A stretch of DNA of 64,000 nucleotides. Origin: an uncultured Pelagibacteraceae bacterium (lineage in GTDB: Bacteria; Pseudomonadota; Alphaproteobacteria; Pelagibacterales; Pelagibacteraceae). The stretch lies in contig CABYDT010000004.1 of the NCBI GenBank assembly GCA_902517865.1, positions 62,001-126,000 on the forward strand, read 5' to 3'. Below the pieces are notes generated by a model that had not been told where the DNA came from, ran no database searches, and saw only the letters and a list, made by a program, of their open reading frames with translations. Shown here piece after piece: positions 23,496 to 40,069 of the stretch (positions are counted from its first letter, which is position 1; every line of letters starts with the position of its first letter). Position numbers and translations under genes: made by a program.

Positions 23496-24470
23496 GTGTC
23501 TAAAGCAATACAAATTAGTAAATTTGGCGGTCCAGAAGTACTTGAATTAAAAGAAATAAATTTGCCTAAACTAGGACCCAAAGAAGTGCTGTTGAAAAAT
23601 AGTTCTATTGGACTAAATTTTATTGATACATATCATCGTTCTGGACTATATCCACTAAATTTGCCTTCGGGTATTGGAGTTGAAGGTTCTGGAGTAGTAG
23701 TTGAGAAAGGAAGCGACGTTAAGCTTTTTAAAATTGGTGATAGAGTTGCTTATAGTTCAATGCCAATAGGAGCTTATTCTGAGATACATATAATGCCAGA
23801 AGAAAAGCTCGTAAGTGTACCAAATGACATTAGTCATGAAATTGCAAGTTCAATGTTATTAAAAGGTATGACTTGTGAATACCTTCTACATAGAACATAT
23901 AAGGTTACAAGCAAAGATACTATTCTATTTCATGCTGCAGCAGGAGGCGTAGGGCAAATATTTTGCCAATGGGCTAAAAAAATTGGTTGCAAATTAATTG
24001 GAACAGTTGGTTCTGAAGAAAAAATTGAGATTGCAAAAAAAAATGGTTGTGATCATGTTATTAATTACACTACAGACAATTTTGCTAAAAAAACATTGGA
24101 AATAACGGATGGCAAAGGAGTTGATGTTGTTTACGATGGAGTGGGAGAAAAAACATTTGAGGGATCTATTGAAACTTTAAAAGTCAGGGGGATGTTTGTA
24201 ACATTTGGAAATGCATCTGGGCCGATTAAAACAATCGAATTAAAAAAACATATAGCCCCAAAAGCAATTTTTATTACACGTCCATCAGTATTTCCATATA
24301 CTTCAACCAGAGAAGAGTTGGAGATGTCAGCTAAAATGGTTTTTGAAGCATTTAAAGAAAAGAAAATTAAAATGGAAATTGTAAAAAAGTATTCTTTGAG
24401 TGAAGCTAGAAAGGCGCATGAGGATTTAGAAGCTAGAAAACTCAAAGGTCCAGCAATTATATTAACTTAA
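23496..24470 (+). CDS. qor: NADPH:quinone oxidoreductase (zinc-independent MDR)
   Basis: 324-residue medium-chain dehydrogenase of the quinone oxidoreductase group, lacking the zinc-binding cysteines of alcohol dehydrogenases. N-terminal MSKAIQISKFGGPEVLEL, GLNFIDTYHRSGLYP (about 38-52), nucleotide-binding HAAAGGVGQIFCQWAKKIG (about 149) and VYDGVGEKTFEGS. GTG start 41 bp from the divergent LysE gene. Reduces quinones or unsaturated carbonyls with NADPH. Its stop overlaps the rhodopsin stop by 4 bp on the opposite strand. Confidence 0.9.
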   Translation: MSKAIQISKFGGPEVLELKEINLPKLGPKEVLLKNSSIGLNFIDTYHRSGLYPLNLPSGIGVEGSGVVVEKGSDVKLFKIGDRVAYSSMPIGAYSEIHIMPEEKLVSVPNDISHEIASSMLLKGMTCEYLLHRTYKVTSKDTILFHAAAGGVGQIFCQWAKKIGCKLIGTVGSEEKIEIAKKNGCDHVINYTTDNFAKKTLEITDGKGVDVVYDGVGEKTFEGSIETLKVRGMFVTFGNASGPIKTIELKKHIAPKAIFITRPSVFPYTSTREELEMSAKMVFEAFKEKKIKMEIVKKYSLSEARKAHEDLEARKLKGPAIILT

Positions 24471-25198
24471 GTATTTCTTGACAATCTAGCGGCACAAAGA
24501 AAACAAGTAAGAGAGAACCCTACTTTATTGAATAAATCTCCGAAATTATAAATAATTTCTCTTGTCAAAGCTGTTTCAACTGAGGAGTCATAAAAGGAAA
24601 TTGCTAAGCCCAAAGGATATATTGCCCAACCGTACACAATAAATTTATTTACTATACTTAAACAATTTTGAATATGCATCATTCCATTTACGTTATTTGC
24701 CTGAATTACTTTTGGTAATATAAAATTAAATATGTATAAAATTCCTAACCAACTTCCAAATCCAATAATAAACATCATATAAGAGAAATATAATGGCATT
24801 GTACTATTAGAGAATGAGCTCTCAGAAAAGTAACCAGAAACTATCATTAGAAAATTTAAACTTAGCGCAATACTTACAATTATTTTGTTTGTTTTATAAA
24901 TTTTAGAAATTACAAAAAATGTATATAACATTATTGGTGTAGCAATAAACCAAGTAATGTAACGGTATTCAGTTGGATAATTTATATTAGGATTATTTAA
25001 ATTAGATAAAGAAAAAAATTCCCTCATATTGTAATATTCAATAACCGCTAAGAAAGTTGTCAAAAAAGCCAAAGTTGATATTGATTTATACTCATTGCTT
25101 AATTTATACCTTTCAAGAATGAAATAAGCGCTGGCTGCGAGCATAGCAATTAAAGTAAATTCAAAAGTATATGATGTTGTTAATGTAAATATATTCAT
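24467..25198 (-). CDS. TAT-motif microbial rhodopsin (non-canonical type 1 rhodopsin)
   Basis: 243 residues, seven transmembrane helices. Helix G NFGDLFNKVGF keeps the retinal Lys (K225) and counterion Asp (D221). Helix F has GWAIYPLGLAI. Helix C reads YRYITWFIATPIMLYTFF: Arg79 is kept, but the proton acceptor Asp97 of proteorhodopsin is Thr82, its Thr101 is Ala86, and the donor Glu108 is Thr93, so the motif is Thr-Ala-Thr instead of Asp-Thr-Glu. Position 105 is Met90 (green-type tuning). Proteorhodopsin His75 aligns with Glu54 (EYYNMR). This matches the TAT rhodopsin known from SAR11 HIMB114, reported as having unusual photochemistry and calcium binding rather than pumping. It begins 2 bp after a 57-residue membrane gene, at the end of a long catabolic gene train. 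A sensory or switch role is inference. Confidence 0.93.
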   Translation of the reverse strand: MNIFTLTTSYTFEFTLIAMLAASAYFILERYKLSNEYKSISTLAFLTTFLAVIEYYNMREFFSLSNLNNPNINYPTEYRYITWFIATPIMLYTFFVISKIYKTNKIIVSIALSLNFLMIVSGYFSESSFSNSTMPLYFSYMMFIIGFGSWLGILYIFNFILPKVIQANNVNGMMHIQNCLSIVNKFIVYGWAIYPLGLAISFYDSSVETALTREIIYNFGDLFNKVGFSLTCFLCAARLSRNT

Positions 25199-25377: not shown

Positions 25378-27090
25378 TTACTTCTTATATTGTAAAAAAT
25401 CAAAATCACAACCTTCATGTGCTTGTAATACAGAGTCATAATAAAGTTTTAAATAACCTCTTTTAATATTTGGTATTTTTTTACTAATTTGTTTATTTAA
25501 TCTATTTTTTAACTCATTTTTAGAGATGATTAGATCTAATCTTTTATTTTTTACACTTAATTTTATTTTGTCTCCATTTTTAATTATTGAAAATGGTCCA
25601 CCAACAGATGACTCTGGTGAAACATGCAAAATAATTGTACCAAAAGCTGTGCCGCTCATCCTTCCATCTGAAATTCTAATCATATCTTTAACTCCAGATT
25701 TTAAAAGTTTCTTTGGTATTGGCAGATATCCTGCTTCTGGCATTCCATAAACTGTTTTTGGCCCTATATTTTTAAGTATGAGAAAATCGTTCTTTGAAAT
25801 TTTTAAACTTTTGTTATCAATTAATTTTGACATTGATTTAATATCTTCAAAAACAACTGCTTTACCAGTTTTTTCAAATAATTTTTTGTCCGCAGCTGAT
25901 CTTTTTAATATCGCACCACTTGGGCAAATATTTCCAAAAAGACTAATTAAACCACCATGTTTTTCAAAGGGTTTTTTTCTAGATCTGATTACATTCTGAT
26001 CATGAAAACTTTTTGAATTACTATTTATTATTGTGGATAGACTTTTACCTTCTATATTGCTCGTACCTAGTTTTAACAGTGGTTTAAGTTCTTTGAGTAG
26101 TGCCTTCATTCCTCCTGCATGATAAAAGTCCTCCATATAAAATTTACCTGTTGGTTTCAAATCAACTAATACCGGAGTTTTATTGCTTATTTTATTAAAT
26201 TCTCTTAAGTCAACTTTAATTCCCAGTCTGCCTGCAATAGCTGTTAAATGTATAATAGCATTTGTTGATCCTCCTAGTGACAAAAGGCATACTAAAGCGT
26301 TGTAAATATCTTGCTTATTAATTTTTTTTATTTTCTTAATTTTTTTTCTAGCGATCTTTGCGCAAATAATGCCTGTTTTCTCTGCAATGTTTAATCTTTC
26401 AGAATAAACAGCTGGTACACATGAAGAGTCTGTCAAACATAAACCCATCACTTCAGAGATACACGCCATTGTACTTGCTGTTCCCATAACTGAACATGTT
26501 CCAGCGCTTGATGCTAGTTTGTTTTCAACCTCACTAATTTTATGACGAGATATTTTTCCCTCTCTATAATTAGACCAGTATCTCCTACAATCGGTACAAG
26601 CTCCCAGCCTATTATTTTCAAACTTACTAGTAATCATTGGTCCGGCAGGCAAAACTACGAATGGTTTTTGTGCAGATATCGCGCCCATAATCATTGCAGG
26701 TAATGTTTTGTCACAACCTCCTAATAAAACAACTGCATCTAATGGCTGGGCCCTTATCATCTCTTCAACGTCCATTGACATCAAATTTCTAAACATCATG
26801 CTAGTGGGATGTAAATATACTTCACCTAATGAAATCACCGGAAATTCAACAGGTAGACAACCATTAGAATTAATTCCTCTTTTTAATGCGTCAATCATTT
26901 CTGGAAAATGGCGATGACAACTATTGAAACCGCTAGATGTGTTGATAATTCCAACTATTGGTTTATTGAGGGATTCATCTGTGTAACCCATTGATTTAGC
27001 AAAAGATCTTCTTAAATAAGATGAAAATTCAATATCCCCGTAATTTGTTAAATTATTATCAAATCCTGATTTTTTTATTTTTTTTTTCAT
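25378..27090 (-). CDS. IlvD/Edd-family dehydratase (probable sugar-acid dehydratase)
   Basis: 570 residues, Fe-S dehydratase family (dihydroxyacid, phosphogluconate, arabinonate and xylonate dehydratases). Cluster cysteines appear in LLGGCDKTLPAMIMG (about 124), GACTDCRRYW (about 163-166) and SAGTCSVMGTASTM (about 197). C-terminal RISDGRMSGTAFGTIILHVSPE is conserved. The GACTDCRRYW segment and the sugar-catabolic context suggest an L-arabinonate/xylonate-type dehydratase rather than valine-pathway IlvD. The gene is one base after the aldehyde dehydrogenase, as in 2-keto-3-deoxy sugar-acid routes ending in 2-oxoglutarate semialdehyde oxidation. Confidence 0.85.
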   Translation of the reverse strand: MKKKIKKSGFDNNLTNYGDIEFSSYLRRSFAKSMGYTDESLNKPIVGIINTSSGFNSCHRHFPEMIDALKRGINSNGCLPVEFPVISLGEVYLHPTSMMFRNLMSMDVEEMIRAQPLDAVVLLGGCDKTLPAMIMGAISAQKPFVVLPAGPMITSKFENNRLGACTDCRRYWSNYREGKISRHKISEVENKLASSAGTCSVMGTASTMACISEVMGLCLTDSSCVPAVYSERLNIAEKTGIICAKIARKKIKKIKKINKQDIYNALVCLLSLGGSTNAIIHLTAIAGRLGIKVDLREFNKISNKTPVLVDLKPTGKFYMEDFYHAGGMKALLKELKPLLKLGTSNIEGKSLSTIINSNSKSFHDQNVIRSRKKPFEKHGGLISLFGNICPSGAILKRSAADKKLFEKTGKAVVFEDIKSMSKLIDNKSLKISKNDFLILKNIGPKTVYGMPEAGYLPIPKKLLKSGVKDMIRISDGRMSGTAFGTIILHVSPESSVGGPFSIIKNGDKIKLSVKNKRLDLIISKNELKNRLNKQISKKIPNIKRGYLKLYYDSVLQAHEGCDFDFLQYKK

Positions 27091-28527
27091 CTAAGAAATT
27101 TTGAACTTTGTATATTTTGGAACTAAATAATCAAAAATGCCTAATGATCCACCTTCTCTACCAAATCCTGACTCTTTTACGCCACCAAAAGGAATTTCTG
27201 CAGATGCTAGCATCATATCATTAACGCCGACCATTCCAACTTCAAGTTTCTCAGAAGCGATATGTGCATTTTGCAATGATGAAGTAAAAACATATCCTGC
27301 TAATCCAAAATTAGTATTATTTGCTATCTCGTAAGCATCATTTGGATCCTTAAACTTAATTATTGGAGCAACTGGCCCAAAAGGTTCTACTGTCATGATA
27401 TCTGCTTTACTAGATACATTATTTAAAACTGTAGGCTCATAAAAGAAACCTTTATTAAATTTTTTGCTTTGAGATCCTCCTGTTAAAACTTTTGCTCCCT
27501 TAACTTTTGCATCTTCCACTAATTCAATAATATGCTCTAGACCTCTTTTATTTGCAAGCGGACCTACATTCGTATCTTTGTCCAACCCATTTCCAAGTTT
27601 TAACCCTTTGGTATTTTTTGTGAAAATTTCACAAAATTTTTCATAAGAATTTTCCTGAACAAAAAAACGTGTTGGAGATATACATACTTGACCGGCATTC
27701 CTAAATTTAAAATTTGAGCATGTAACAGCAGCTTCATCAATATTTGCATCATCAAAGATTAAAACTGGCGCATGTCCTCCTAGTTCCATTGAAACTTTTT
27801 TAATTCCCTCTGCCGCTAATTTAAGAATTTGTTTTCCAACTTCTACAGATCCTGTTAATGAAACTTTTTTTATTATAGGTGAATCTAAAAGATATTTTGA
27901 TATAAAAGATGATTTTCCTGTCACAAAATTTACAACTCCATTAGGTAATCCTGCTTTTTTACAAGCCTCTATCATATGCATACATGTTCCGGGTGTTTCG
28001 CTAGCTGGCTTTAAAATAACACTGCAACCTGCTGCAATTGATGCAGCAACTTTTCTAGCTGGTAACAAAATTGGAAAGTTCCATGCACTAAAAGCTGCTA
28101 CAACTCCAACTGGCTCATATCTAACTTGCAACCTAACATCACTTGATCTTGACTCTATTAGTTGTCCATAAATTCGTTTTGTCTCTTCTGCAAACCAATC
28201 AAATTGCTCTGCAGAAGCCAATGTTTCGCCTCTAGATTCTGCAAGTGGTTTGCCTGTTTCTAATGTCATGGTGTTTGCAATTGTATCAACGTTTTCCCTT
28301 ATATTATCTGCAATTTTTTTGATTATTTTTGACCTCTCCCAAGGAGAAGTTTTTCTCCAGCTCTCCATTGATTTTTTTGCAGATTGTAAAGCTTGGTCAA
28401 GGTCTTTCTCTTTCGAGGATGGTATAGTACCTAACAATTCCTCGTTACATGGATTAACAACACTAATTTTTTCTTTTGTGTTGTTCGACCATTTCCCATC
28501 TATAAAATTTCCTAAATTTTGATACAT
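27091..28527 (-). CDS. NAD(P)-dependent aldehyde dehydrogenase (succinate/2-oxoglutarate semialdehyde type)
   Basis: 478 residues, GabD/KGSADH-like. Signatures: AFSAWNFPILLPARKVA (about 142, Asn of the oxyanion hole), SLTGSVEVGKQIL (about 226), catalytic Glu in SMELGGHAPVLIFDDA (about 250) and catalytic Cys in FRNAGQVCISPTRFFV (about 284). C-terminal PFGGVKESGFGREGG is the usual semialdehyde dehydrogenase ending. Sits between a ThDP enzyme and the IlvD/Edd dehydratase (0-6 bp gaps), which supports oxidation of a semialdehyde such as 2-oxoglutarate semialdehyde in sugar-acid breakdown. Exact substrate is inferred from context. Confidence 0.87.
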   Translation of the reverse strand: MYQNLGNFIDGKWSNNTKEKISVVNPCNEELLGTIPSSKEKDLDQALQSAKKSMESWRKTSPWERSKIIKKIADNIRENVDTIANTMTLETGKPLAESRGETLASAEQFDWFAEETKRIYGQLIESRSSDVRLQVRYEPVGVVAAFSAWNFPILLPARKVAASIAAGCSVILKPASETPGTCMHMIEACKKAGLPNGVVNFVTGKSSFISKYLLDSPIIKKVSLTGSVEVGKQILKLAAEGIKKVSMELGGHAPVLIFDDANIDEAAVTCSNFKFRNAGQVCISPTRFFVQENSYEKFCEIFTKNTKGLKLGNGLDKDTNVGPLANKRGLEHIIELVEDAKVKGAKVLTGGSQSKKFNKGFFYEPTVLNNVSSKADIMTVEPFGPVAPIIKFKDPNDAYEIANNTNFGLAGYVFTSSLQNAHIASEKLEVGMVGVNDMMLASAEIPFGGVKESGFGREGGSLGIFDYLVPKYTKFKIS

Positions 28528-28533
28528 TTTAAT

Positions 28534-30414
28534 TTAAATTTTTTGCTTAGAATATTCTATTTGTACATCTTCGCACCAATTACCTACATTCCAAGATCCA
28601 TATGCACCCATTCCTCCAAGCTCATCGGTGCCACTATATACTGGCACATGTATTACAGATAAACCATTAAAATTAAAAGCCTCTTTCAATATTTTTTGTA
28701 ATTCTTTAATTGAGTAACCTCCAAAAAACCCTTTTACTCCCTTAACAGACTCTGCCATTTTTACATAATCGACTTCAACACTGTCATTAGTTTTAAATTC
28801 CTTGTCGTATTGTGCATATTGTAAACCTGTAATCGCAGACATTCTTCTATTATCAAATATTACAATCATACCTTTAAGTTTAATATGAACAGCATCGATT
28901 AATACCTGAGGATTCATCATAAAAGATCCATCACCTGTAAAACTAATTGGGTATCTTGGTTTATTAGCTATTGCAGATGCTAAAATGGCGCTCGGTGAAA
29001 AACCCATATATGAAGCTCCTGTATCTGTATAAGTTTGAAAAGGATTTTTGTCTTCTGCAATTTGAAATCCATTTGCCTGCACATCTCCAGCGTCAAAAAA
29101 TTTAACGCAATTGTTAGAATTTGAGAAATCAATAACGGTTTTGATAGCTGCAGGTTGCGTCAATACCGATTTTTTAAAAGCATCATCTTTTAATGTTTCG
29201 TTTTTATAAATTCTAGATTTAAATTCTGTCCACTCCTTTTTCTTACTCACGCAAGTTTCTATCCAATCATTTTTAGTATTAGATTTTTTAATTTTATTAT
29301 TTTGCAAAGAGTCATTAATTTGATTTAAAATATTTCCAATGTCACCATTTAATCCCAAAGTATTATTATAATGCATCATATCTGAAAGATCTGCATTGAT
29401 ATTAATTACAGCTTCTGCTTTTGGATATCCAATGCCTGAACAATCGGATTGACAAACTGATCTTGATCCAATTGATATGAGTAGGTTAGCATTTTGCATT
29501 GCGTAATTTCCTGAAATTGATCCTTTGCTACCACCAACGTGCATATTGTTTTTATGTTCATCACTTAAAACTCCCAGAGATCCAGGTGCAAGAACAACAG
29601 GAACATTTAAAATTTCTGAAAATCTCGTAAGTTCCTTAGAAAAATTTCTAGAGCCGCCTCCTGCCTTAATTACAATTTTATTAAATTTATTTATGGAATT
29701 TTCAAATTCTTTTATTTTGTCTTCACTTAATTTATTATGATTTTCTAATTTATCTTTTCCTGGCAAAGTGTCTAAGTTTAAATTTTTAATTATTTTCGGC
29801 TGTGTATTTATTGGCAACATAAAATAAAAAGGGCCGGCTTTATAGGGGTGTTTAGTTTTTAAATACCCTTTTCTTAATCCATCTCTTATTGACTCGGGTG
29901 TATGAAATACATGAGACTCTGACATTAATGCAGTAATTTTTCCATACAAATCTTGTTCGCGTTTAGGAATCTGCTGCATGTTATATCCTTCGCCATGTGT
30001 TGTTTCATCACCATAAATATGATAAACGCCAACACCATTGGATGATGAAGCTAATGATCCAGCCATTGCTTGAAGTGCACCAGGTCCTATTGAGGTAACT
30101 ACTGCAGGTATTTCATTATATTGCCAGCTCAGTGCAGTTGCGGCATGTGTCATTTCAATCTCATTTCTAAAATTGAAAGTTTTAGTTACACCGAATTTTT
30201 CATAAATTCTTAAAATTTCAGCAAAGTCTGTAGAGCCATGGCCAAAAATTGCGAAATATTTTTTTACATTTTGTTTTAATAACCCTAAAATAATTCCCTC
30301 TGATAAAGTGACATCTACATTTCGAGGTAGCAATTTCTTATCAATACAATCTAAAATGTTTCCATTATTTTTTGCTAAAATTGATGCCCTTTGTTCTATA
30401 GCTTTTAGATTCAT
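28534..30414 (-). CDS. Thiamine-diphosphate-dependent enzyme, acetolactate synthase/IolD-like
   Basis: 626 residues with three ThDP-enzyme domains. Catalytic Glu in FRNEIEMTHAATALS (about 103), Pyr domain TSIGPGALQAMAGS, central domain about 240-380 (VVLAPGSLGVLSDEH), PP domain with SFTGDGSFMMNPQVL (about 493) and diphosphate-binding Asn in FDNRRMSAITGLQY. Extra N-terminal length and the HIYGDETTHGEGYNMQQIP insert resemble IolD (trihydroxycyclohexanedione hydrolase) and related decarboxylases more than biosynthetic IlvB. ATGA overlap with tctA. Likely a carboligase, decarboxylase or ring-diketone hydrolase in the operon's pathway. Reaction undetermined. Confidence 0.78.
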   Translation of the reverse strand: MNLKAIEQRASILAKNNGNILDCIDKKLLPRNVDVTLSEGIILGLLKQNVKKYFAIFGHGSTDFAEILRIYEKFGVTKTFNFRNEIEMTHAATALSWQYNEIPAVVTSIGPGALQAMAGSLASSSNGVGVYHIYGDETTHGEGYNMQQIPKREQDLYGKITALMSESHVFHTPESIRDGLRKGYLKTKHPYKAGPFYFMLPINTQPKIIKNLNLDTLPGKDKLENHNKLSEDKIKEFENSINKFNKIVIKAGGGSRNFSKELTRFSEILNVPVVLAPGSLGVLSDEHKNNMHVGGSKGSISGNYAMQNANLLISIGSRSVCQSDCSGIGYPKAEAVININADLSDMMHYNNTLGLNGDIGNILNQINDSLQNNKIKKSNTKNDWIETCVSKKKEWTEFKSRIYKNETLKDDAFKKSVLTQPAAIKTVIDFSNSNNCVKFFDAGDVQANGFQIAEDKNPFQTYTDTGASYMGFSPSAILASAIANKPRYPISFTGDGSFMMNPQVLIDAVHIKLKGMIVIFDNRRMSAITGLQYAQYDKEFKTNDSVEVDYVKMAESVKGVKGFFGGYSIKELQKILKEAFNFNGLSVIHVPVYSGTDELGGMGAYGSWNVGNWCEDVQIEYSKQKI

Positions 30415-31937
30415 GCTTGATTAACCTCTTTTAATTTTTTTTGATTTCTGACATCTATTACTCTTTTTCTAACTTGAAGAGCAATTGTTAAAATTATTAA
30501 CATGAAGAATAACACACAAACTATAGAACCAAAAAAAATAGAAGGATCTCCTGCTGACAATGACATAGCTGTGCGATATTCTTGCTCAATAGTTCTACCA
30601 AGCACTAAACCAAGAACAATTGGTGTTACTGGCAGTCTAATTCTATTAAAAAAATAACCTATTAAACCCATAATAATCATTACATTTACATCTAAAAAAG
30701 AGTTTCTTATTGCATAAGAGCCGACAACAACCATTATAAGTATTCCAACTGCTAAATGGTGCGGTTTAACCCTTAATATTTTAACAATATGTTTGATAAA
30801 ATTTACCTGGAATAAAAATACAACTATATAAGCTAATAATATTGCTAGATATATAGAGTATACTTGAGGTGCATTTTCTATGAATAACATTGGTCCAGGA
30901 ACTAAGCCATGTATCAAGAGACCACCAAGAATAATAGCAGTTGCAGGGTCTCCAGGTATGCCAAGTGAAAGTAAAGGAACCATTGCGCCTCCAGTGACTG
31001 CATTATTTGCTGTCTCAGGAGCTATCACTCCTCCTAAATGTCCTTTTCCATAAAGTTCTTTTTCTTTTAAATCTTTTTCAGAATTTTTAGCATGAGAATA
31101 TGCTAAAAAGGCAGCAATTGGACCACCTGATCCAGGTATAGCACCTATAGATGTACCTAATCCTACACACCTAAGCATTAAATTGAAATATTTTTTTAAT
31201 AAAGCAAAACTTGGTAATTTTGTTTTTACTACATCAATATCATAATTTTTTTGATCCTCATCACAAATTCTGCTGTTAAAAACTTCAAGTATATGTGGGA
31301 CTGCAAATAATCCTATCATTGCTACAAGCAAGTTTACTCCTTGTAACATTTGAACATTTCCAAAAGTAAATCTTTGGACGCCCTCAATTTCATCGGTTCC
31401 TATTGTCATCAACATCAGTCCAAGCAACCCTGCAACAAGGCCTCTAAATAATGATTTTTCAGCTAATCCACAAATTGTAGAAAATCCAAAAAGCACTAAC
31501 ATAAATATTTCCGCTGGACCAAATTTAATCGCAAACTTTGATATAAAATCTACCATAACTATCATTAAAGATAGACTGATAAGACCTCCGATTGTGGAAA
31601 CGATTACAGCCGTACCTAATGCAATACTTGCATCACCTTTCTTTGATAGAGAATATCCATCTGAGACCGTTGCAGCAGCTGATGGTGTCCCTGGTATTCC
31701 TATCAAAATTGCTGAAATAGAACCACCTGTCATTCCACCTATATAAGTTGCTAACAAGAGAGAAATTCCTGTAACTGGTTGCATTGTAAAAGTAAAAGGT
31801 AACATCAAAGCAAGTGCCATAGAATAAGTTAATCCAGGTATTGCGCCAAAAATAATTCCAGCAAATGATCCGATACAAATAGCAATAAATACTTCGTAAT
31901 TATTTATTAATCCTAAAGCTGTTATTAAATTTTCCAT
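30411..31937 (-). CDS. tctA: Tripartite tricarboxylate transporter, large permease TctA
   Basis: 508 residues, about 10-12 transmembrane helices in two homologous halves. Diagnostic motifs are FGAIPGLTYSMALALMLPF (about 31-49) and SIGAIPGSGGPIAAFLAYSHAK (centred near 265; key residues Gly-Ala-Ile-Pro-Gly), plus GIPGTPSAAATVSDGYSLSK and SLGIPGDPATAIILGG. Works with TctB and periplasmic TctC to import carboxylates using an ion gradient. Starts directly after the tctB stop and shares an ATGA overlap with the ThDP enzyme gene. Confidence 0.93.
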   Translation of the reverse strand: MENLITALGLINNYEVFIAICIGSFAGIIFGAIPGLTYSMALALMLPFTFTMQPVTGISLLLATYIGGMTGGSISAILIGIPGTPSAAATVSDGYSLSKKGDASIALGTAVIVSTIGGLISLSLMIVMVDFISKFAIKFGPAEIFMLVLFGFSTICGLAEKSLFRGLVAGLLGLMLMTIGTDEIEGVQRFTFGNVQMLQGVNLLVAMIGLFAVPHILEVFNSRICDEDQKNYDIDVVKTKLPSFALLKKYFNLMLRCVGLGTSIGAIPGSGGPIAAFLAYSHAKNSEKDLKEKELYGKGHLGGVIAPETANNAVTGGAMVPLLSLGIPGDPATAIILGGLLIHGLVPGPMLFIENAPQVYSIYLAILLAYIVVFLFQVNFIKHIVKILRVKPHHLAVGILIMVVVGSYAIRNSFLDVNVMIIMGLIGYFFNRIRLPVTPIVLGLVLGRTIEQEYRTAMSLSAGDPSIFFGSIVCVLFFMLIILTIALQVRKRVIDVRNQKKLKEVNQA

Positions 31938-32414
31938 TTATATTATCTGTATTAATGTTCCTCTTGGTAAACTTGATTTTAATAAAATTATAAAAATAAA
32001 ATAAATTAAAGCTGTCATTAAAATTGGAAATGCAAAGTTTAATTTCCAATTCTTTTCTTTTAGCAAAAATCTTGTAATAAAATAAATAACAATTGGTGTT
32101 GATAATATGAAGCCAAATAACTCTAATACATAAGCATAGATTAAAAATAATATAACACAGATAATTATATTTCTAATTTCATTTTTTTTTAATGGCTCCA
32201 CACTTTGTTTTGGTCTGAACCCTAATTTATATTGATACAAAAAAACTAAACCTAAAATTGACATACATATTCCTAAAAAAAATGGAATAGTACGAGGGGT
32301 ATTCGCGTATTCTCCAAGATCACCCTCTATTTGAAAAAAAACTAATATTAACCAAATAATGGAAAAAGCAAGAACACCCAACCCTAAGTATAAGTAGAAC
32401 TTGCTTTTTTCCAT
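31938..32414 (-). CDS. tctB: Tripartite tricarboxylate transporter, small permease TctB
   Basis: About 158 residues, four hydrophobic helices (residues about 8-27, 40-58, 80-105, 115-150), the size and topology of TctB. Motif ANTPRTIPFFLGICM after helix 1 is typical. A GTG at 32426 is in frame four codons earlier. Neither start has a clear Shine-Dalgarno, and ATG 32414 is chosen because helix 1 begins soon after it. Directly abuts tctA and follows tctC by a short gap, confirming the transporter set. Confidence 0.82.
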   Translation of the reverse strand: MEKSKFYLYLGLGVLAFSIIWLILVFFQIEGDLGEYANTPRTIPFFLGICMSILGLVFLYQYKLGFRPKQSVEPLKKNEIRNIIICVILFLIYAYVLELFGFILSTPIVIYFITRFLLKEKNWKLNFAFPILMTALIYFIFIILLKSSLPRGTLIQII

Positions 32415-32431
32415 AACGAAATACACTTGTT

Positions 32432-33391
32432 TTATTTTTTAGCTAAACCAAGTTTATTCATTAGCTTTTTGATTTTTTTATCGTCTTTAGCGATTTTCTT
32501 ACCAAAATCTTTAGCATTTAAGTAATTAATCGTAAAACCGATTTTTTTAGATGCAGCTTTAAACTCAGAGCTGTTTGCATACGCTGCAGCAGCTTTTTCA
32601 AGAGCTTTAATTTGAGCTTTTGGAGTTCCTTTTTTTGCAGCTAAGCCTCTCCACATAACAACATCAACTTTTTTATATCCAAGTTCTTGCATGGTTGGGA
32701 TATTTGAGTCTGATGGTATTCTGTTTGGACTAGTTACTGCTAACATCTTTAATTGACCAGCTTTATGAAAAGATCTGAACTGACCTGGCCACTGTACAGC
32801 AGCGTCAATTCTTCCCGCTAGTAACTCAGCAGGTGCCTTACCTTTTCCATATGGAATATATGTAACCTTTCCACCAAGTGCATCAAAAACAATTGCTGAT
32901 GTTAAATGAGTGAAAGAGCCTTTACCACTAATTCCAACTTTTAGTTTACCAGGATTTTTTTTAACATATGCTGCAAGTTCTTTTACAGAGTTAAAAGTAC
33001 CTGATTTAACTGCCAAAACTGGGACTTCAGTAGTCATCGCTGATATAGGTTCAAAAGCTTTGTAATTAAACTTTGTTTTCCCTTTATAGTGTGAGGTGCT
33101 TACAGAGTTTGAATTCCAAACTATGTCGTGACCTGAAGCAGGCCTTGATTGGATATACTTATATCCTACTGCTCCTCCACCGCCAGTTCTAGATACTGGT
33201 ACAACTGTGCCTCCAAGGTTTTTTTCCAAACCTTTTGCAACAAGTTGTCCAACGCTTTTAGCTGTTCCACCAAACAAAATTGTCATTTCGACAGTTTTTT
33301 CAGGAAACTTAGCAAAAGCATGAGTTGAGATAGTCATAGCAAATAAAGAAATACCTGCTATTAAACTACCTATTTTTTTTACTATTTTCAT
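32432..33391 (-). CDS. tctC: Tripartite tricarboxylate transporter, substrate-binding protein TctC
   Basis: Periplasmic receptor of the Bug/TctC family, about 319 residues. Signal peptide MKIVKKIGSLIAGISLFAM, cleavage near THAFA, then FPEKTVEMTILFGGTAKSVGQ, the family's first ligand loop. VSRTGGGGAVGYKYI and GISGKGSFTHLTS follow the usual pattern. GGGGGC lies 5-9 bases before ATG 33391, so this start is preferred over an in-frame start at 33415. Unlike dctPQM here, no hairpin separates it from the permeases. Likely ligand a carboxylate or sugar acid. Confidence 0.9.
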   Translation of the reverse strand: MKIVKKIGSLIAGISLFAMTISTHAFAKFPEKTVEMTILFGGTAKSVGQLVAKGLEKNLGGTVVPVSRTGGGGAVGYKYIQSRPASGHDIVWNSNSVSTSHYKGKTKFNYKAFEPISAMTTEVPVLAVKSGTFNSVKELAAYVKKNPGKLKVGISGKGSFTHLTSAIVFDALGGKVTYIPYGKGKAPAELLAGRIDAAVQWPGQFRSFHKAGQLKMLAVTSPNRIPSDSNIPTMQELGYKKVDVVMWRGLAAKKGTPKAQIKALEKAAAAYANSSEFKAASKKIGFTINYLNAKDFGKKIAKDDKKIKKLMNKLGLAKK

Positions 33392-33419
33392 TTTGCCCCC
33401 TTTTATTAGTGCCAATAAA

Positions 33420-34439
33420 TCAATTTAACGATTTATTTAGCGACTTCCTTTGTTTTTCTCTAAGCGCACTTAATATTTTTTCAGGTGTTGCAGGTAATGA
33501 TTTTATTCTAACACCTACGGCATCATAAATTGCATTCATGATTGCAGGTGCTGTTGGAACCATTGCAGGCTCACCTATACCTTTTGCGCCTAAAGGACTA
33601 AGAGGATCTGGATCCTCTACAATTTTTGTTTTAACTTTTGGAACATCAAGAGAAGTTGGTAAAATATATTTAGCTAAATTGCCAGATGATGTTTTTCCAT
33701 TATCCAACTCAAAATTTTCCATTAATGCTTGACCTACAGCTTGAACAACGCCACCTTCTACTTGTCCTTCAACTCCTTTAGGATTGATTGCTCTTCCAAC
33801 ATCGTGACAAGCCCAGATACCTAATAATTGTACTTCACCTGTAGCTGTGTCCACTTCAACTTCAGCAACTTGACCACCAAATACATACGCTTGCCAAGGT
33901 TTTCCTGAACCGTCCTCGGGGTGTAGCCCAGTATGATGGGAAGTGTAATTTTCGCCACCTACCGGCACTACCCCATATTTTTTTTTGCAGATTTTTATTG
34001 CTTCACTCATTGGAATTCGGTAATTAGTTCCTTCACTCCAAATTTCACCATCGTGAGCTTTTAATGTTTGAATATCTACATTCCATTCCTTGGCTATTTG
34101 CGCAAATAATTTATTTTTTGCTTGTCTACAAGCTAATGCAACTGCATTACCTATCATGTAAGTTTGTCTTGTAGCGCCTGCGTGTGCAGCTTCAGGACTC
34201 CTAGATGTATCATTTTCACCAATCATTACATTTTCTGGTTTAACACCAAGCTCTTCAGCAGCGACTTGAGCTAAAACAGTTAATATACCCTCACCTATTT
34301 CGGTTACTCCTGTAACAATTTTGGCAGTTCCACCGTCATCAATCTCAGCCCATGCGCCTGCTTGATCCATTGCTGCAGTTCTAGCTATACCGTACCATGC
34401 AGCTGCCATACCTCGACCACGTTTTTTTGTTAAACTCAT
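33420..34439 (-). CDS. Molybdopterin-binding C-terminal half of a xanthine dehydrogenase-type oxidoreductase
   Basis: 339 residues corresponding to the last third of a normal large (Mo) subunit. Starts MSLTKKRGRGMAAAWYGI, the point where the second Mo-binding domain begins in intact homologues, and contains HAGATRQTY and the catalytic Glu in GAKGIGEPAMVPTAP (about 290). The preceding gene supplies the first half. They overlap by 4 bp (ATGA), and the upstream frame of this gene is closed by an adjacent TAA, so it is an independently initiated chain. Together with the FAD gene it should form one oxidising complex acting on an aldehyde, aldose or heterocycle. Confidence 0.85.
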   Translation of the reverse strand: MSLTKKRGRGMAAAWYGIARTAAMDQAGAWAEIDDGGTAKIVTGVTEIGEGILTVLAQVAAEELGVKPENVMIGENDTSRSPEAAHAGATRQTYMIGNAVALACRQAKNKLFAQIAKEWNVDIQTLKAHDGEIWSEGTNYRIPMSEAIKICKKKYGVVPVGGENYTSHHTGLHPEDGSGKPWQAYVFGGQVAEVEVDTATGEVQLLGIWACHDVGRAINPKGVEGQVEGGVVQAVGQALMENFELDNGKTSSGNLAKYILPTSLDVPKVKTKIVEDPDPLSPLGAKGIGEPAMVPTAPAIMNAIYDAVGVRIKSLPATPEKILSALREKQRKSLNKSLN

Positions 34440-36307
34440 TTACTTACTCTGCTCCTGTTTGTTTCAAGTCTAGCTCCTAAAGTGCAGGATTCTCTATTGT
34501 CTGAACTATTTAAATCTTTTCTTTCTTCTCCTCTGTGATTTGAAGATCCTTTATCCCATTTACATAATTTTTCTAATTCGTCCAAAACGTTATTTATACT
34601 TGCAGAATTAAGTTTTTGTTTTGTATGTGTCAGATCTCCTTTTTTAAAAGCATTAACTCGTCTAATCTCAAAAGGATCAAGATTTAATTTTTCTGATGCT
34701 AAATCCATCATTGATTCAGTTGCAAATTCTGTTTGTAATGCTCCAAAACTTCTAAAAGCCCCACTTGGTGTGTTATTTGTGTAAACCCCAATTGTATCCA
34801 TTTTTAAATTTTCAATGTGATACGGCCCTGCACCAAGAATAGCTGCTTTTCTCATTACTCCCTCTGTTGAACAACCATAAGCGCCACCATCGGATAATGT
34901 TTTAATCTCTACTGCAGTTATTTTTCCATTGTTAAGCAATCCCATTTTATAATGAGTTTTTGTTGGGTGTCTTTTTGCGGTTGAAACAATATCTTCTTCT
35001 CGTGACATTACATATTTGATAGGTAAACGAGTTTTCATTGCTAATAAAGCTAACATTCCCTGATAAATCATATCCTCTTTGCCTCCAAATCCTCCTCCAA
35101 CTGGTGACATAATAAATCGAACTTTATGAATTGGTAAATTCATTATCTTTGCCATCATATGACGATGATGAGTAATGTTCTGGCTAGGTGATACAATTGT
35201 TAGCACACCGTCTTGGTCTACGTAAGAAATTCCTGCCATTGGTTCGAGATATGCATGATCAACTGGTTGAGTGGAAAAGTCATCTTCAATAATCACATCC
35301 GCTTTAGCAAAACCTTCATCAATATTTCCTTTTCTGATAGGAATATGTTTTACTACATTTGTTTTGTAGTCTTCATGAATTAAAATTTTATTTTTTAAAG
35401 CTTCCTCTGACTTAAATAAACACGGTAAATCTTCATATATAATTTTAATTTTACTTAGTGCCTCCTTGGCAATTTCAACACTTTCAGCAGCAACAGCAAC
35501 AATAGCTTCGCCAACATATCTCACTTTGTTTTTAGCTAAAACAGGCTGATCTTCGACAAAAACACCAAAATTATCAATTCCAGGAACATCATCTGATGTA
35601 ACAGCTGTAACAACCCCTTTTAACTTTAAAGCTTTGGATAAATCTATTTTTTTAATCTTTGCATGAGGTCTGTCACTTCTAAGAACTTGCATGTGTAGCA
35701 TATTCTGCATTTTCATGTCAGCAGCGTACTTCAAATTTCCAGTAACTTTGCTTGGTGCATCAATCCTTTTAACATTTGCACCAATAAAAGAGTTTTCTGG
35801 TTTATAATATTTATCAAATACGTTTTTATTTTGTTTTTTATTTATTACATCTCTAGCAATTTCTACTGCTTCAAAAATCTTTTGATAACCAGTGCATCTA
35901 CATATATTGCCACCCATCTCTTCTTTTATTTCTTCTAATGATGATTTCGGATTATTTCTAAGAGTAGATGTGGCTGCCATCACCATTCCTGGTATACAAA
36001 ATCCACATTGACTTGCTCCAGTTAAACAGAATGCTTTTTGTACTTCTGACATTTTATCTGGAGTTCCTAATGACTCAACTGTTTCAATTTTCGAACCATT
36101 TACTTTAGCTACCGGCATTAAGCAACTTTTTATAAGTTTGCCATTAACAAATACTGAACAGGTACCGCATTCGCCAGCTCCGCACCCTTCCTTGGTACCA
36201 GTAAGATCCAAATCTTCTCTCAAAAAATCCAATAATCTATAATGAGATTTAGTACTTCTCTTAATATTTTTACCATTGATTGATAAGTTTAATTTAATTT
36301 CTGACAT
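34436..36307 (-). CDS. Fused [2Fe-2S] subunit and N-terminal half of the molybdenum subunit, xanthine dehydrogenase family
   Basis: About 623 residues. Residues 1-160 are the two-domain Fe-S subunit: GCGAGECGTCSVFVNGKLIKSC for the plant-type cluster (key Cys spacing CxxxxCxxC) and QCGFCIPGM with ICRCTGY for the second. Residues about 175 onward are the large-subunit start (VKRIDAPSKVTGNLKYAAD, VRYVGEAIVAVAAE, GGGFGGKEDMIYQG, GAFRSFGALQ). It ends in a charged, dissimilar tail (HRGEERKDLNSSDN and so on). ATG 36307 with AAGGA 8 bases upstream is preferred to a TTG at 36325. Small-large fusion with a C-terminal split is unusual. Confidence 0.85.
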   Translation of the reverse strand: MSEIKLNLSINGKNIKRSTKSHYRLLDFLREDLDLTGTKEGCGAGECGTCSVFVNGKLIKSCLMPVAKVNGSKIETVESLGTPDKMSEVQKAFCLTGASQCGFCIPGMVMAATSTLRNNPKSSLEEIKEEMGGNICRCTGYQKIFEAVEIARDVINKKQNKNVFDKYYKPENSFIGANVKRIDAPSKVTGNLKYAADMKMQNMLHMQVLRSDRPHAKIKKIDLSKALKLKGVVTAVTSDDVPGIDNFGVFVEDQPVLAKNKVRYVGEAIVAVAAESVEIAKEALSKIKIIYEDLPCLFKSEEALKNKILIHEDYKTNVVKHIPIRKGNIDEGFAKADVIIEDDFSTQPVDHAYLEPMAGISYVDQDGVLTIVSPSQNITHHRHMMAKIMNLPIHKVRFIMSPVGGGFGGKEDMIYQGMLALLAMKTRLPIKYVMSREEDIVSTAKRHPTKTHYKMGLLNNGKITAVEIKTLSDGGAYGCSTEGVMRKAAILGAGPYHIENLKMDTIGVYTNNTPSGAFRSFGALQTEFATESMMDLASEKLNLDPFEIRRVNAFKKGDLTHTKQKLNSASINNVLDELEKLCKWDKGSSNHRGEERKDLNSSDNRESCTLGARLETNRSRVSK

Positions 36308-37226
36308 GCAAATATTCCTTTTCAAGGTTATCTTTAATAAAATTTAAATTTAAATTTTTCGATGTATTTTTTTCTAATGATTTTAAAATTGATCTTACGA
36401 TAAAATTTTGCAAAACTTGTTTTCTATAATCTTTTCTTGTTCTTGAATTTATAACATTTAACTCTAATAGCGAAGCTTCAAAAATATTTTTATGAGAAAC
36501 TTGCTTACCAATTAAAAATTTTTCTACCTTTAATAATCTTTGAGGAATTTCACACACTCCTGAGACAGATATCCTTATGTCTTCAAATTTATTGTTTTTT
36601 ACTTTTAAAACACAAGCTACACATACGGTTGAAATTACTAAAGATCTTCTATGACCAACTTTTTCGAAACACGCTTGGTAGTCATTTAAATTATCCATAT
36701 CAAAACCAATAACTAAATCTTTTTTTCCCAAGGCTACTTTATTTCTTCCCCTAACAAATTCTTTCAATGTAAGTGTTTTTTTTATAATTTTGTCGCCTTT
36801 AATAACTCCAATAATCACTTTAGCATTAAGTGATAACAAAGCGGGAGTACTATCTGCTGCTGGCGATGCATTAACAATATTTCCTCCTAATGTTGCTTGC
36901 TCTCTAATTTGATCATCAGCAAACCATACTGAGATTTGTGGCAAAATTTTAAGGTTTTTTCTTATTTTCTTATCTAAAAAAATATCTTGGAAAGAAGTTG
37001 CTGCACCTAAACTTATATTTTTTTTTGCAAACTTCATATAATTAAGTTCTTTAATTTTAGATACATCAATTATATTTTTGAAATAAACATCTCCAGCTCT
37101 TCCTTCTCTAGCCCAAGGCATTGTATCTGTACAACCTGCTACAATACGATAATTTCCAATACTATTACACATCTTTGCATACTCTTTTAATGTTTTGGGT
37201 ATGTAGTAATTATCGTATTTTAACAT
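36294..37226 (-). CDS. FAD-binding subunit of the molybdenum oxidoreductase (CoxM/XdhB type)
   Basis: 310 residues. FAD-binding motifs YRIVAGCTDTMPWAREG (about 27-43) and QATLGGNIVNASPAADSTPA (about 112-131) are intact, followed by the CO dehydrogenase flavoprotein C-terminal domain (about 185-290). Transfers electrons from the Fe-S clusters to an acceptor. Lies 4 bp after the alcohol dehydrogenase and overlaps the fused Fe-S/Mo gene by 14 bp, giving FAD, Fe-S/Mo-N and Mo-C in consecutive cistrons. Confidence 0.9.
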   Translation of the reverse strand: MLKYDNYYIPKTLKEYAKMCNSIGNYRIVAGCTDTMPWAREGRAGDVYFKNIIDVSKIKELNYMKFAKKNISLGAATSFQDIFLDKKIRKNLKILPQISVWFADDQIREQATLGGNIVNASPAADSTPALLSLNAKVIIGVIKGDKIIKKTLTLKEFVRGRNKVALGKKDLVIGFDMDNLNDYQACFEKVGHRRSLVISTVCVACVLKVKNNKFEDIRISVSGVCEIPQRLLKVEKFLIGKQVSHKNIFEASLLELNVINSRTRKDYRKQVLQNFIVRSILKSLEKNTSKNLNLNFIKDNLEKEYLHVRN

Positions 37227-37230
37227 TAAT

Positions 37231-38364
37231 CTAAATTAACCTTTCGTCATTTCGAACTACTACTTTTATTGCGTCTTCAATTCTCTCTCTTGTATACTTA
37301 AGTCCAGTCTGAAGATCCTTCATTGGAAATGTATGAGTATGAATTAATTTTGCATCAAATCTTTTTTGCGCCATTAAAGCCATTGCTCTGTGGCATGCAG
37401 ATTTACCCTCTCCTCTTGTCGCGTAAATATAAGCATTATTTCTAACAAGATTTGCAATATCAACCTCAACAGGTTTTGAAGGGAACGCTGCCAAACCGAT
37501 TTTACCTCCACGTCTAATCATTGCAGAAGCATCATTAATTGCATTAGCAGCACCAGAACACTCTAATACGTAGTGTGCTCCAATCCCACCGGTTAGATCT
37601 CTAACAAACTCAACAGGATTCTGTTTTTTTACATTAACTACATGATTAGCACCTAATTTTTTTCCTATCTCAAGTCTATTATCTCTAGTTCCTGTTAATA
37701 CAACTTCTGCTCCCAGAGCACTAGCTACTCCAACCGCACACAGACCAATTGGACCAGGTCCAGTAACGACCATAGTTTGTCCTGCAAACAATCCTCCCAT
37801 AACATCTAGAGTATACATACTAGTTCCAGCTGTAACTGCTAAAGTTGCTTCTTCATCTGACATGTCATCAGGAACATGCACAAGAGTTTGCGTTCTATTT
37901 GTCATATATTCTGCAAAAGCGCCGTCAGTTGTAAAACCGTTGGCTTTATGACCTTTAGATGCAAAACCATAGTTTAAACATGAAGTATACCAACCTTTTC
38001 TGCACATTTCGCATCTTCCACATCCAGCGTGGATTTCTACTGCAACCCTATCTCCCAACTTAAATTCAGTAACTCCCTCACCCAATTTTACAACTCTTCC
38101 CATTGCCTCGTGACCTGGGGAATAATTTTTATTGAAAGGTAATTCACCTTCAATTCTGGCAGGGTTACCGTGACTAATAATTTCCAAGTCAGTTGCACAA
38201 ATTGCAACTGCATCAATTTTAAGTAAAACTTCGCCTTCTTTTGGTTGTGGAACAGGTTTTTTGACAATATTGATATTGTCTGGATCGTTTAAAACCCAGG
38301 CTCCCATTTCTTTTGGAATATCAAAATTCTTATTGTGTCCCATCATATTATTATTACGCGGCAT
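37231..38364 (-). CDS. Zinc-dependent medium-chain alcohol/polyol dehydrogenase
   Basis: 377 residues. Catalytic zinc ligands in AICATDLEI (Cys) and SPGHEAMGRVV (His-Glu), structural zinc site CGRCEMCRKGWYTSC (about 116-130), and NAD-binding VTGPGPIGLCAVGVASALGA (about 197-216). Related to sorbitol/threonine dehydrogenases, which oxidise polyols or hydroxyacids. It overlaps the IclR regulator gene by 11 bp and starts the enzymatic part of the operon, consistent with oxidising an imported or derived hydroxy compound before the molybdo-enzyme step. Substrate unknown. Confidence 0.87.
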   Translation of the reverse strand: MPRNNNMMGHNKNFDIPKEMGAWVLNDPDNINIVKKPVPQPKEGEVLLKIDAVAICATDLEIISHGNPARIEGELPFNKNYSPGHEAMGRVVKLGEGVTEFKLGDRVAVEIHAGCGRCEMCRKGWYTSCLNYGFASKGHKANGFTTDGAFAEYMTNRTQTLVHVPDDMSDEEATLAVTAGTSMYTLDVMGGLFAGQTMVVTGPGPIGLCAVGVASALGAEVVLTGTRDNRLEIGKKLGANHVVNVKKQNPVEFVRDLTGGIGAHYVLECSGAANAINDASAMIRRGGKIGLAAFPSKPVEVDIANLVRNNAYIYATRGEGKSACHRAMALMAQKRFDAKLIHTHTFPMKDLQTGLKYTRERIEDAIKVVVRNDERLI

Positions 38365-39148
38365 GTTTTTCTCCTTTTTTTTTGGTTTGTTTAAAATATT
38401 TACTTATTTCGTTTGCAGATGCGGCAACAGAAACTCTAATTTTTTCAATATAATTTTTATTATCTCTAATTTTAAATTTTGGTGATGAACAACTAACTGA
38501 TGCATAAGGATTACCATTATTATCAAAAATAGGAAAACCTATACAAAATACGCCTTCTTGAAATTCTTCGTCATCATATGCAAATCCATTTTTTTTTATT
38601 CTATGAAGTTCTTGCTCTAATGAGTTGAAGCTAACATGTGTTTTATCAGTAAATTTATATAACCCGTTCTTCAAAATTTTTTTTCTTTTTTCTTTGTCTA
38701 AAAATGCCAAAATGGCTTTTCCTGATGCTGTCGCATGAAAAGCATTGTCTTTATTTAAAAAACCTTGATCGACCCTTACAGGATGTTTAGATTCTATCAT
38801 TTTTAAAGTAATTAATTTTGAACCTTCAAAAGTAGCTAAATGGACGGCCTCGCCAGTTTTGTCATTAATTTTCTTGAGATGAGAAAACGAAAAATTCGTA
38901 AATGCAGATTTGCTGTGAGGCATTAACTTAGTAAATTTAAAAAACTTTGAGCCTAGTAAATATTTTTTTGTTTTTAAGTCTTGATACAAGTAACCTTTAT
39001 CGCAAATTGTTGATAGCATATGATGAGCTGCCGATTTTTTGTAACCTAACTCGTCACATATCTCTTTTAATGCGATTCCGTTCCTGGCATCTTTGCGAAG
39101 AAAATAATCTAAAGTGTCTAAAGTTTTTTCTATTGATCTAACAGACAT
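38354..39148 (-). CDS. IclR-family transcriptional regulator
   Basis: 264 residues: N-terminal winged helix-turn-helix (about 1-65; ALKEICDELGYKKSAAHHMLS contains the recognition helix, key residues Lys-Ser-Ala-His) and C-terminal effector-binding domain (about 85-250) with ATASGKAILAFL and FAYDDEEFQEGVFCIGFPIF. It is the promoter-proximal gene of the large minus-strand train and so probably autoregulates and controls catabolism of the compound taken up by TctABC. No second copy of an operator could be pinned down in the 80 bp upstream, which is AT-rich. Confidence 0.9.
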   Translation of the reverse strand: MSVRSIEKTLDTLDYFLRKDARNGIALKEICDELGYKKSAAHHMLSTICDKGYLYQDLKTKKYLLGSKFFKFTKLMPHSKSAFTNFSFSHLKKINDKTGEAVHLATFEGSKLITLKMIESKHPVRVDQGFLNKDNAFHATASGKAILAFLDKEKRKKILKNGLYKFTDKTHVSFNSLEQELHRIKKNGFAYDDEEFQEGVFCIGFPIFDNNGNPYASVSCSSPKFKIRDNKNYIEKIRVSVAASANEISKYFKQTKKKGEKHAA

Positions 39149-39229: not shown

Positions 39230-39598
39230 TTAATTGAAATTTAAATATTCTACGAAAGATCTAACGGATATCAATAGTAAAAAAATACCAAACATTTTAG
39301 ATATTACCTCTTTGTCAATAGAATGTACTATTTTAGCACCTAAAGGTGCTAATAACATTGTGACAGGTACAAAAATTATAAATCCAGGTAAATTTACAAA
39401 ACCAATGCTAAATGGAACTTGAACATTTGAAAAAAACGTTCCACTAATTGCCATACTTACTGCACCACAGACTGCATTTACTATGCCTATTGTGGCAGAG
39501 GTACCGATCGCTATATTAATTGAATATCCCAAAACTTTTATAAATGGCACTCCAAGTGAACCTGCTCCAATGCCCAGCGGGACTGACATAAAACCCAT
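39230..39598 (-). CDS. C-terminal half of a TauE/SafE-type permease (split gene)
   Basis: 122 residues matching the second repeat of the TauE/SafE sulfite-exporter/anion permease family: GFMSVPLGIGAGSLGVPFI (about 2-20) and AIGTSATIGIVNAVCGA, with three to four helices. The reading frame is open upstream of the ATG back to a TAG that lies about 15 bp before the stop of the N-terminal half, so the two halves look like one gene broken by a -1 frame change. No Shine-Dalgarno precedes the ATG. Either a recent frameshift, a sequencing error, or two separately made halves. Confidence 0.65.
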   Translation of the reverse strand: MGFMSVPLGIGAGSLGVPFIKVLGYSINIAIGTSATIGIVNAVCGAVSMAISGTFFSNVQVPFSIGFVNLPGFIIFVPVTMLLAPLGAKIVHSIDKEVISKMFGIFLLLISVRSFVEYLNFN

Positions 39599-39646
39599 GA
39601 AAATCCCATAAGTATTTTTAACAAAATTTGGTATATTTTTTTTTTT

Positions 39647-40069
39647 TTATCCAACTTTGTTTCTAAAAAAAATAAAAAAAATTGCTACACAAAATGCAAA
39701 AAATGAAAACATTAATAAAAGCTGGGGAGTTTTTAGATTTGTTGCAATGAATGTTCCTATTAAAATTCCAATAGCTACAGCAATACCAAAGGATTTGACT
39801 AATTCGAAATTGACTGCTTTGTATTTCATATGAGATAATGCAGATACTATTGATGTAGGAATTATTATTGCAAGCGAGGTGCCTAAAGCCATGTGCATCT
39901 TTACAGTTTCATCATAACCTAATTGAGAAAAGGCGTAATATAATGCAGGAACCATTATAATACCTCCTCCAACACCTAATAGTCCAGCAATAAAACCTGA
40001 TACAGCAGCAGAGACAGCTAAAACAGTAACAAGAATAATAATTTGATTTAGATCTAAACTTTCAATCAA
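39647..40069 (-). CDS. N-terminal half of a TauE/SafE-type permease (split gene)
   Basis: 140 residues, four hydrophobic helices, first repeat of the family: GFIAGLLGVGGGIIMVPALY (about 25-44) and HMALGTSLAIIIPTSIVSAL. Ends FFRNKVG then TAA immediately before a run of 12 A on the coding strand. Intact family members are about 250-270 residues, the sum of this and the next ORF. One base follows the dusA stop, so it is read with dusA and the malonyl-CoA decarboxylase genes. Possible role: sulfite, sulfonate or organic-acid anion export. Confidence 0.7.
   Translation of the reverse strand: MIESLDLNQIIILVTVLAVSAAVSGFIAGLLGVGGGIIMVPALYYAFSQLGYDETVKMHMALGTSLAIIIPTSIVSALSHMKYKAVNFELVKSFGIAVAIGILIGTFIATNLKTPQLLLMFSFFAFCVAIFFIFFRNKVG

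Follow-up and report, generated by a model that had tools for sequence, protein, structure and literature searches.

The class of rhodopsin closest to the protein described here is known from the SAR11 strain HIMB114, whose TAT rhodopsin, going by the titles of its authors' papers, binds calcium and senses environmental pH in a UV-dependent manner. The residues involved in Ca2+ binding are E54 and D227 (PMC11931529), and T82D of the same protein is named in a reference title. HIMB114 carries two rhodopsin clusters, and according to a 2023 survey the meaning of the second cluster, in this and in two other genomes, is unclear (PMC10030771). In the literature searched, of which the original TAT papers were not part, TAT rhodopsin was studied in vitro and no physiological role was found for it. 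The title of Mannen et al. 2024 (J Mol Biol 436:168331) announces a further, newly recognised group of TAT rhodopsin homologues with a conserved glutamate, to which our protein may be related.

The rhodopsin analysed here is encoded in a 64,000-nucleotide stretch of DNA of an uncultured Pelagibacteraceae bacterium, hereafter the window. It is 61% identical to the orthologue of a genome taken to be HIMB114 (see below), with which it shares E54, T82, A86, T93 and the helix-G Asp and Lys, as well as the operon, the small upstream gene and the chromosomal site. On the other hand, it is six residues shorter (the Asp being residue 221 instead of 227), differs in 39% of its residues and comes from a different genus by the grouping used. 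The rhodopsin of Exiguobacterium sibiricum (4hyj, 35% identity) has the same entry into helix G, Arg-Glu-(Leu/Ile)-Ile-Tyr-Asn-Phe, but is a proton pump with an Asp acceptor, a His partner, a helix-A Trp and a Lys donor. The DTE proteorhodopsins of SAR11 (30–32% identity) belong to the same superfamily and have the same fold, but keep the equivalents of W34, H75, D97, T101 and E108. Finally, the flotillin-associated rhodopsins (FArhodopsins), whose motif is DTT, DTL or DNI and whose genes lie next to one for flotillin (PMC10308929), are likewise second rhodopsins of SAR11 with a conserved gene neighbour, but differ from our protein in their DTT-type motif, in the flotillin neighbour and in context and sequence.

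Identification of the rhodopsin and its orthologues

The rhodopsin gene reads from ATG to TAA on the minus strand, the plus strand being full of stops there, and residues 8–237 of its product match Pfam Bac_rhodopsin (E = 1.5e-30). The best solved relative by sequence in the PDB search was 4hyj (1.9e-41), which was also the closest fold (TM 0.88) to the AlphaFold2 model (pLDDT 83). Judged from its sequence, the protein is a type-1 rhodopsin. An assignment to the FArhodopsins, the other known second rhodopsin type of SAR11, would agree with its being the second rhodopsin of a SAR11 genome that also encodes an ordinary proteorhodopsin. However, the solved FArhodopsin scored 1.7e-12 in the same comparison, and the assignment, to which we attach next to no probability, was refuted by a motif that is TAT rather than DTT, DTL or DNI and by neighbours that include no flotillin.

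Some rhodopsin match was present in 230 of 297 Pelagibacteraceae genomes, and only four had a match of more than 60% identity to the window protein. Its three SAR11 orthologues are 61–66% identical to it, and the orthologue pairs computed range from 57 to 69%. No further TAT orthologue turned up among 297 genomes sampled from the order. Among 398 genomes sampled from the phylum, only the window's own protein scored better than 1e-27, and the viral contigs searched contained neither TAT rhodopsin nor the 57-aa protein encoded next to it (see below). One orthologue belongs to a complete SAR11 genome of 1,237,371 bp (G022) that also has a second rhodopsin, of proteorhodopsin type. In its own numbering this protein (L005) carries E54, T82, D227 and K231, the last two aligning to D221 and K225 of the window protein. 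With two rhodopsins and a helix-G Asp at the published position 227, G022 is taken to be HIMB114. Another orthologue is found in the metagenome-assembled genome (MAG) CPC289 1679 (G059).

In a maximum-likelihood tree the four TAT proteins formed one clade with 100/99 support; 4hyj was placed beside it, apart from the proteorhodopsins, although long branches make this wider placement unsure. The sequence-only reading, which had matched the residue pattern to the TAT rhodopsin of HIMB114 and had asked for a tree with that protein and proteorhodopsins, is borne out by the grouping with the G022 protein. With T82/A86/T93, E54, D221 and K225 in place and this monophyly, the window protein is almost certainly an orthologue of the SAR11 TAT rhodopsin; the class is already known, and the protein is a new orthologue in it, not a new class.

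Key residues

The alignment set the window protein against the sequences of three PDB rhodopsins and 15 proteorhodopsins from SAR11, proteorhodopsin numbers being assigned by alignment and general knowledge. Proteorhodopsin D97, T101 and E108 correspond to T82, A86 and T93, H75 to E54 and R94 to R79, while the helix-G Asp and the retinal Lys are D221 and K225. At the places where a pump has its Asp acceptor (D97) with His75 and its carboxylate donor (E108), the window protein has therefore T82, E54 and T93. The substitutions in helix C, the Glu54 in place of His75 and the retention of the retinal Lys, the helix-G Asp and Arg79 had all been read from the sequence beforehand, and the alignment agrees with each of them; the acceptor position, checked for an Asp or Glu, is occupied by Thr82. 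The helix F aromatics, said to be kept as well, are so at W191 and Y194 but not at the next position, where proteorhodopsins carry Tyr and the window protein has Leu198. Beyond those already named, the kept residues are W83, P88, E126, P195 and N224.

A further difference was found in helix A, where Glu13 stands at the position of a Trp (proteorhodopsin Trp34) in SAR11 proteorhodopsins and 4hyj. In blue proteorhodopsin, Trp34 forms a hydrogen bond across the subunit boundary with His75, which in turn is bonded to Asp97 (PMC4374980). As aligned, this cross-protomer triad W34-H75-D97 is replaced by E13-E54-T82 in all four TAT proteins, which suggests where an inter-subunit Ca2+ or proton site might lie; E13 may take part in Ca2+ binding or in subunit contact. 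E13, E54, T82 and A86 are invariant across the four orthologues, and T93 is present in three of them. The last motif position can vary: L004 (1501–2235), with Ile there, is a Thr-Ala-Ile orthologue and represents a natural variant of Thr-Ala-Thr.

Loss of the pump residues, and the absence of the gene from most relatives, could also be seen in a degenerate proteorhodopsin duplicate without function. Nevertheless, the gene is conserved in four genomes at 57–69% identity with its frame intact and its lysine kept, it shows only 28–32% identity, hence no close kinship, to SAR11 proteorhodopsins, and with pN/pS of 0.28–0.38 among the TAT orthologues compared it is under purifying selection. These ratios, together with the conservation of the five positions, argue against chance or decay as the origin of the residue pattern, and degeneration is very improbable.

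As equivalents of Asp97 and Glu108 are lacking, a classic proton cycle is unlikely, in line with what had been expected from the sequence, and the window protein is probably a non-pumping photoreceptor. By orthology, it is reasonable to assume for it both the lack of such a cycle and the binding of calcium. Halorhodopsins, too, have Thr at the first motif position, and a weak or conditional ion pump might be conceived in which E54, E13 or D221 accepts the Schiff-base proton, or Thr82 forms a halorhodopsin-like anion site. Two extra carboxylates, E13 and E54, indeed lie near the usual acceptor, invariant in the four orthologues, and the fold is close to that of the pump 4hyj. Against this, helix C has no donor carboxylate (T93, or I93 in L004), the motif begins with Thr-Ala and not with the Thr-Ser of halorhodopsins, the title on the orthologue calls it a UV-dependent pH sensor, and a DTE pump is already present in the genome, so that pumping of this kind appears improbable.

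Gene block ending with the rhodopsin

The rhodopsin gene is the last in a row of 13 same-strand genes (39148 to 24467; Table 1), in which neighbours either overlap or are no more than 6 bp apart. From this spacing we infer that the block is co-transcribed; promoter and terminator scans of the block returned sites no more frequently than in shuffled sequences. Its enzymes suggest the oxidation and dehydration of a polyol, an aldose or a sugar acid. The Mo subunit of the hydroxylase is split in two genes (33420–36325, minus strand), a split conserved in L054 and L056. Close to the block, on the plus strand (17490–21541), an enolase-superfamily sugar-acid dehydratase is followed by a D-2-hydroxyglutarate-dehydrogenase-like FAD/Fe-S protein, a pair possibly belonging to a related metabolism.

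Table 1. Genes of the block and of its flanks, in window coordinates
Feature	Coordinates	Strand	Remarks
Quinone-oxidoreductase-like gene	23496..24470	+	Convergent flank, outside block
TAT-type rhodopsin, 243 aa	24467..25198	-	E13, E54, R79, T82, W83, A86, T93, W191, Y194, D221, K225
Two-helix membrane protein, 57 aa	25201..25374	-	Directly upstream of rhodopsin in 4/4 TAT genomes
IlvD/EDD-type (sugar-)acid dehydratase	25378..27090	-	NCBIfam PRK06131 subfamily
Aldehyde (semialdehyde-type) dehydrogenase (ALDH)	27091..28527	-
Thiamine-pyrophosphate (TPP) enzyme	28534..30414	-	Distantly IolD-like
TctA transporter subunit	30411..31937	-	Family match
TctB-like transporter subunit	31938..32426	-	Named by position and length only
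TctC solute-binding receptor	32432..33415	-	Family match
Molybdenum hydroxylase, C-terminal part of Mo subunit	33420..34439	-	MoCoBD_2
Molybdenum hydroxylase, 2Fe-2S domains fused to N-terminal part of Mo subunit	34436..36325	-
Molybdenum hydroxylase, FAD subunit	36294..37226	-	Family match
Zinc alcohol/polyol dehydrogenase	37231..38364	-	Family match
IclR-family regulator	38354..39148	-	First gene of block; family match
TauE/SafE-like permease	39230..40069	-	Other flank, outside block; named by sight

Neither the operon context nor Glu13 is discussed in the literature searched, again with the original TAT rhodopsin papers outside its scope; both are possibly undescribed, which is no proof of novelty.

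Distribution and history of the block

The gene order was the same in G022 and in G059, both of another genus by the grouping used, and also in G012, of a third genus, as far as its short contig reaches. The rhodopsin, the 57-aa protein and the TPP enzyme each occurred in exactly the same four of the 297 family genomes, although these are not independent events, the genes being linked. The three other TAT genomes all had a close orthologue of the dehydratase, whereas a search of 16 genomes lacking TAT rhodopsin gave no such orthologue and at best a 34%-identical homologue.

The quinone-oxidoreductase and TauE genes flanking the block directly adjoin each other in four relatives, 49 bp apart in G065 and with a 4-bp overlap in G030, G031 and G047; the block is thus either there or missing in its entirety. 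Flanks and block are similarly diverged (about 60–87% identity), and this, with the use of the same site in two genera, favours old inheritance with repeated loss; alternatively, the block may have been acquired by transfer. G012 has a different site: there, the contig with the TauE-dusA flank is not the one that carries the block.

Two interruptions were noted in this region. The TauE/SafE-like gene of the window has an in-frame stop at 39647–39649 (minus strand), whereas the ORF is uninterrupted, with 277 aa, in L054 and L056; the IclR gene of the CPC289 MAG (L056, 6226–7021) is broken into two ORFs by assembly error or decay.

The 57-aa protein and the proposed role

The 57-aa protein is modelled (pLDDT 85) with helices at residues 3–20 and 23–56 and an acidic tail. 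It is more conserved than its neighbour, with 77–82% identity to the window copy against 61–66% for the rhodopsin, and its pN/pS of 0.08–0.23 indicates a real coding gene under purifying selection. Searches against Pfam, NCBIfam and PDB folds gave nothing significant, a match to PTPS_related (15.6 bits) falling under that family's cut-off of 26.4, and in 349 phylum genomes the sole matches were two of 19 bits, which lay within far longer ORFs and were taken as chance. At all four loci the rhodopsin start codon overlaps the end of the 57-aa gene or follows it within 3 bp, which suggests translational coupling.

The gene of the transducer HtrII lies directly upstream of that of sensory rhodopsin II. 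Here, too, the gene of a two-helix membrane protein immediately precedes that of a rhodopsin of non-pumping type. The resemblance to that pair is one of analogy only, and we do not claim membership: two helices with a short acidic tail make up the whole 57-aa protein, without HAMP or signalling domains. That the 57-aa protein is a partner of the TAT rhodopsin is a tentative proposal. As it was never seen without the operon, an association with the rhodopsin cannot be told apart from one with the transporter or enzymes.

A possible though doubtful alternative is that the TAT protein is a non-pumping photoreceptor which only shares the promoter and would thus be produced in the presence of the substrate, the 57-aa protein serving TctCBA or the enzymes. 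The 57-aa gene also lies only 3 bp from the dehydratase gene, and inheritance is of the entire block rather than of the rhodopsin alone; conversely, its place immediately before the rhodopsin gene is constant at the four loci, and to our knowledge tripartite Tct systems do not require a fourth subunit.

The explanation we prefer as a whole, with a probability of roughly 0.55, is a non-pumping UV/pH/Ca2+ photoreceptor that serves the operon, and service to this operon, taken by itself, is slightly favoured. According to this proposal, a retinal-binding seven-helix photoreceptor would not complete a normal pumping cycle, since Thr82 takes the place of the Asp that accepts the Schiff-base proton and Thr93 that of the Glu serving as internal donor. 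Its absorption would be set by Schiff-base protonation and by Ca2+ near E54 and D221, perhaps together with E13, and it might report UV/visible light jointly with external pH or Ca2+. The output would act on the membrane components of the operon, most likely through contact with the 57-aa protein; we infer this from the position of the rhodopsin gene, last in an IclR-headed uptake-and-oxidation operon and always behind the two-helix protein. More speculative still, and rather unlikely, is that the TAT rhodopsin and the 57-aa protein form a two-part photoreceptor coupling UV/pH/Ca2+ sensing to a polyol/sugar-acid uptake-oxidation operon; if true, the two would be a pared-down bacterial equivalent of a sensory rhodopsin with its transducer. 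The constant operon, the block-wise presence or absence and the conserved tiny neighbour offer a concrete, testable lead to the role of TAT rhodopsin.

With a canonical DTE proteorhodopsin elsewhere in the genome, the TAT copy would be free for another role. This other rhodopsin of the host (L002, 618–1433) is an ordinary one, with Gln at the spectral-tuning position.
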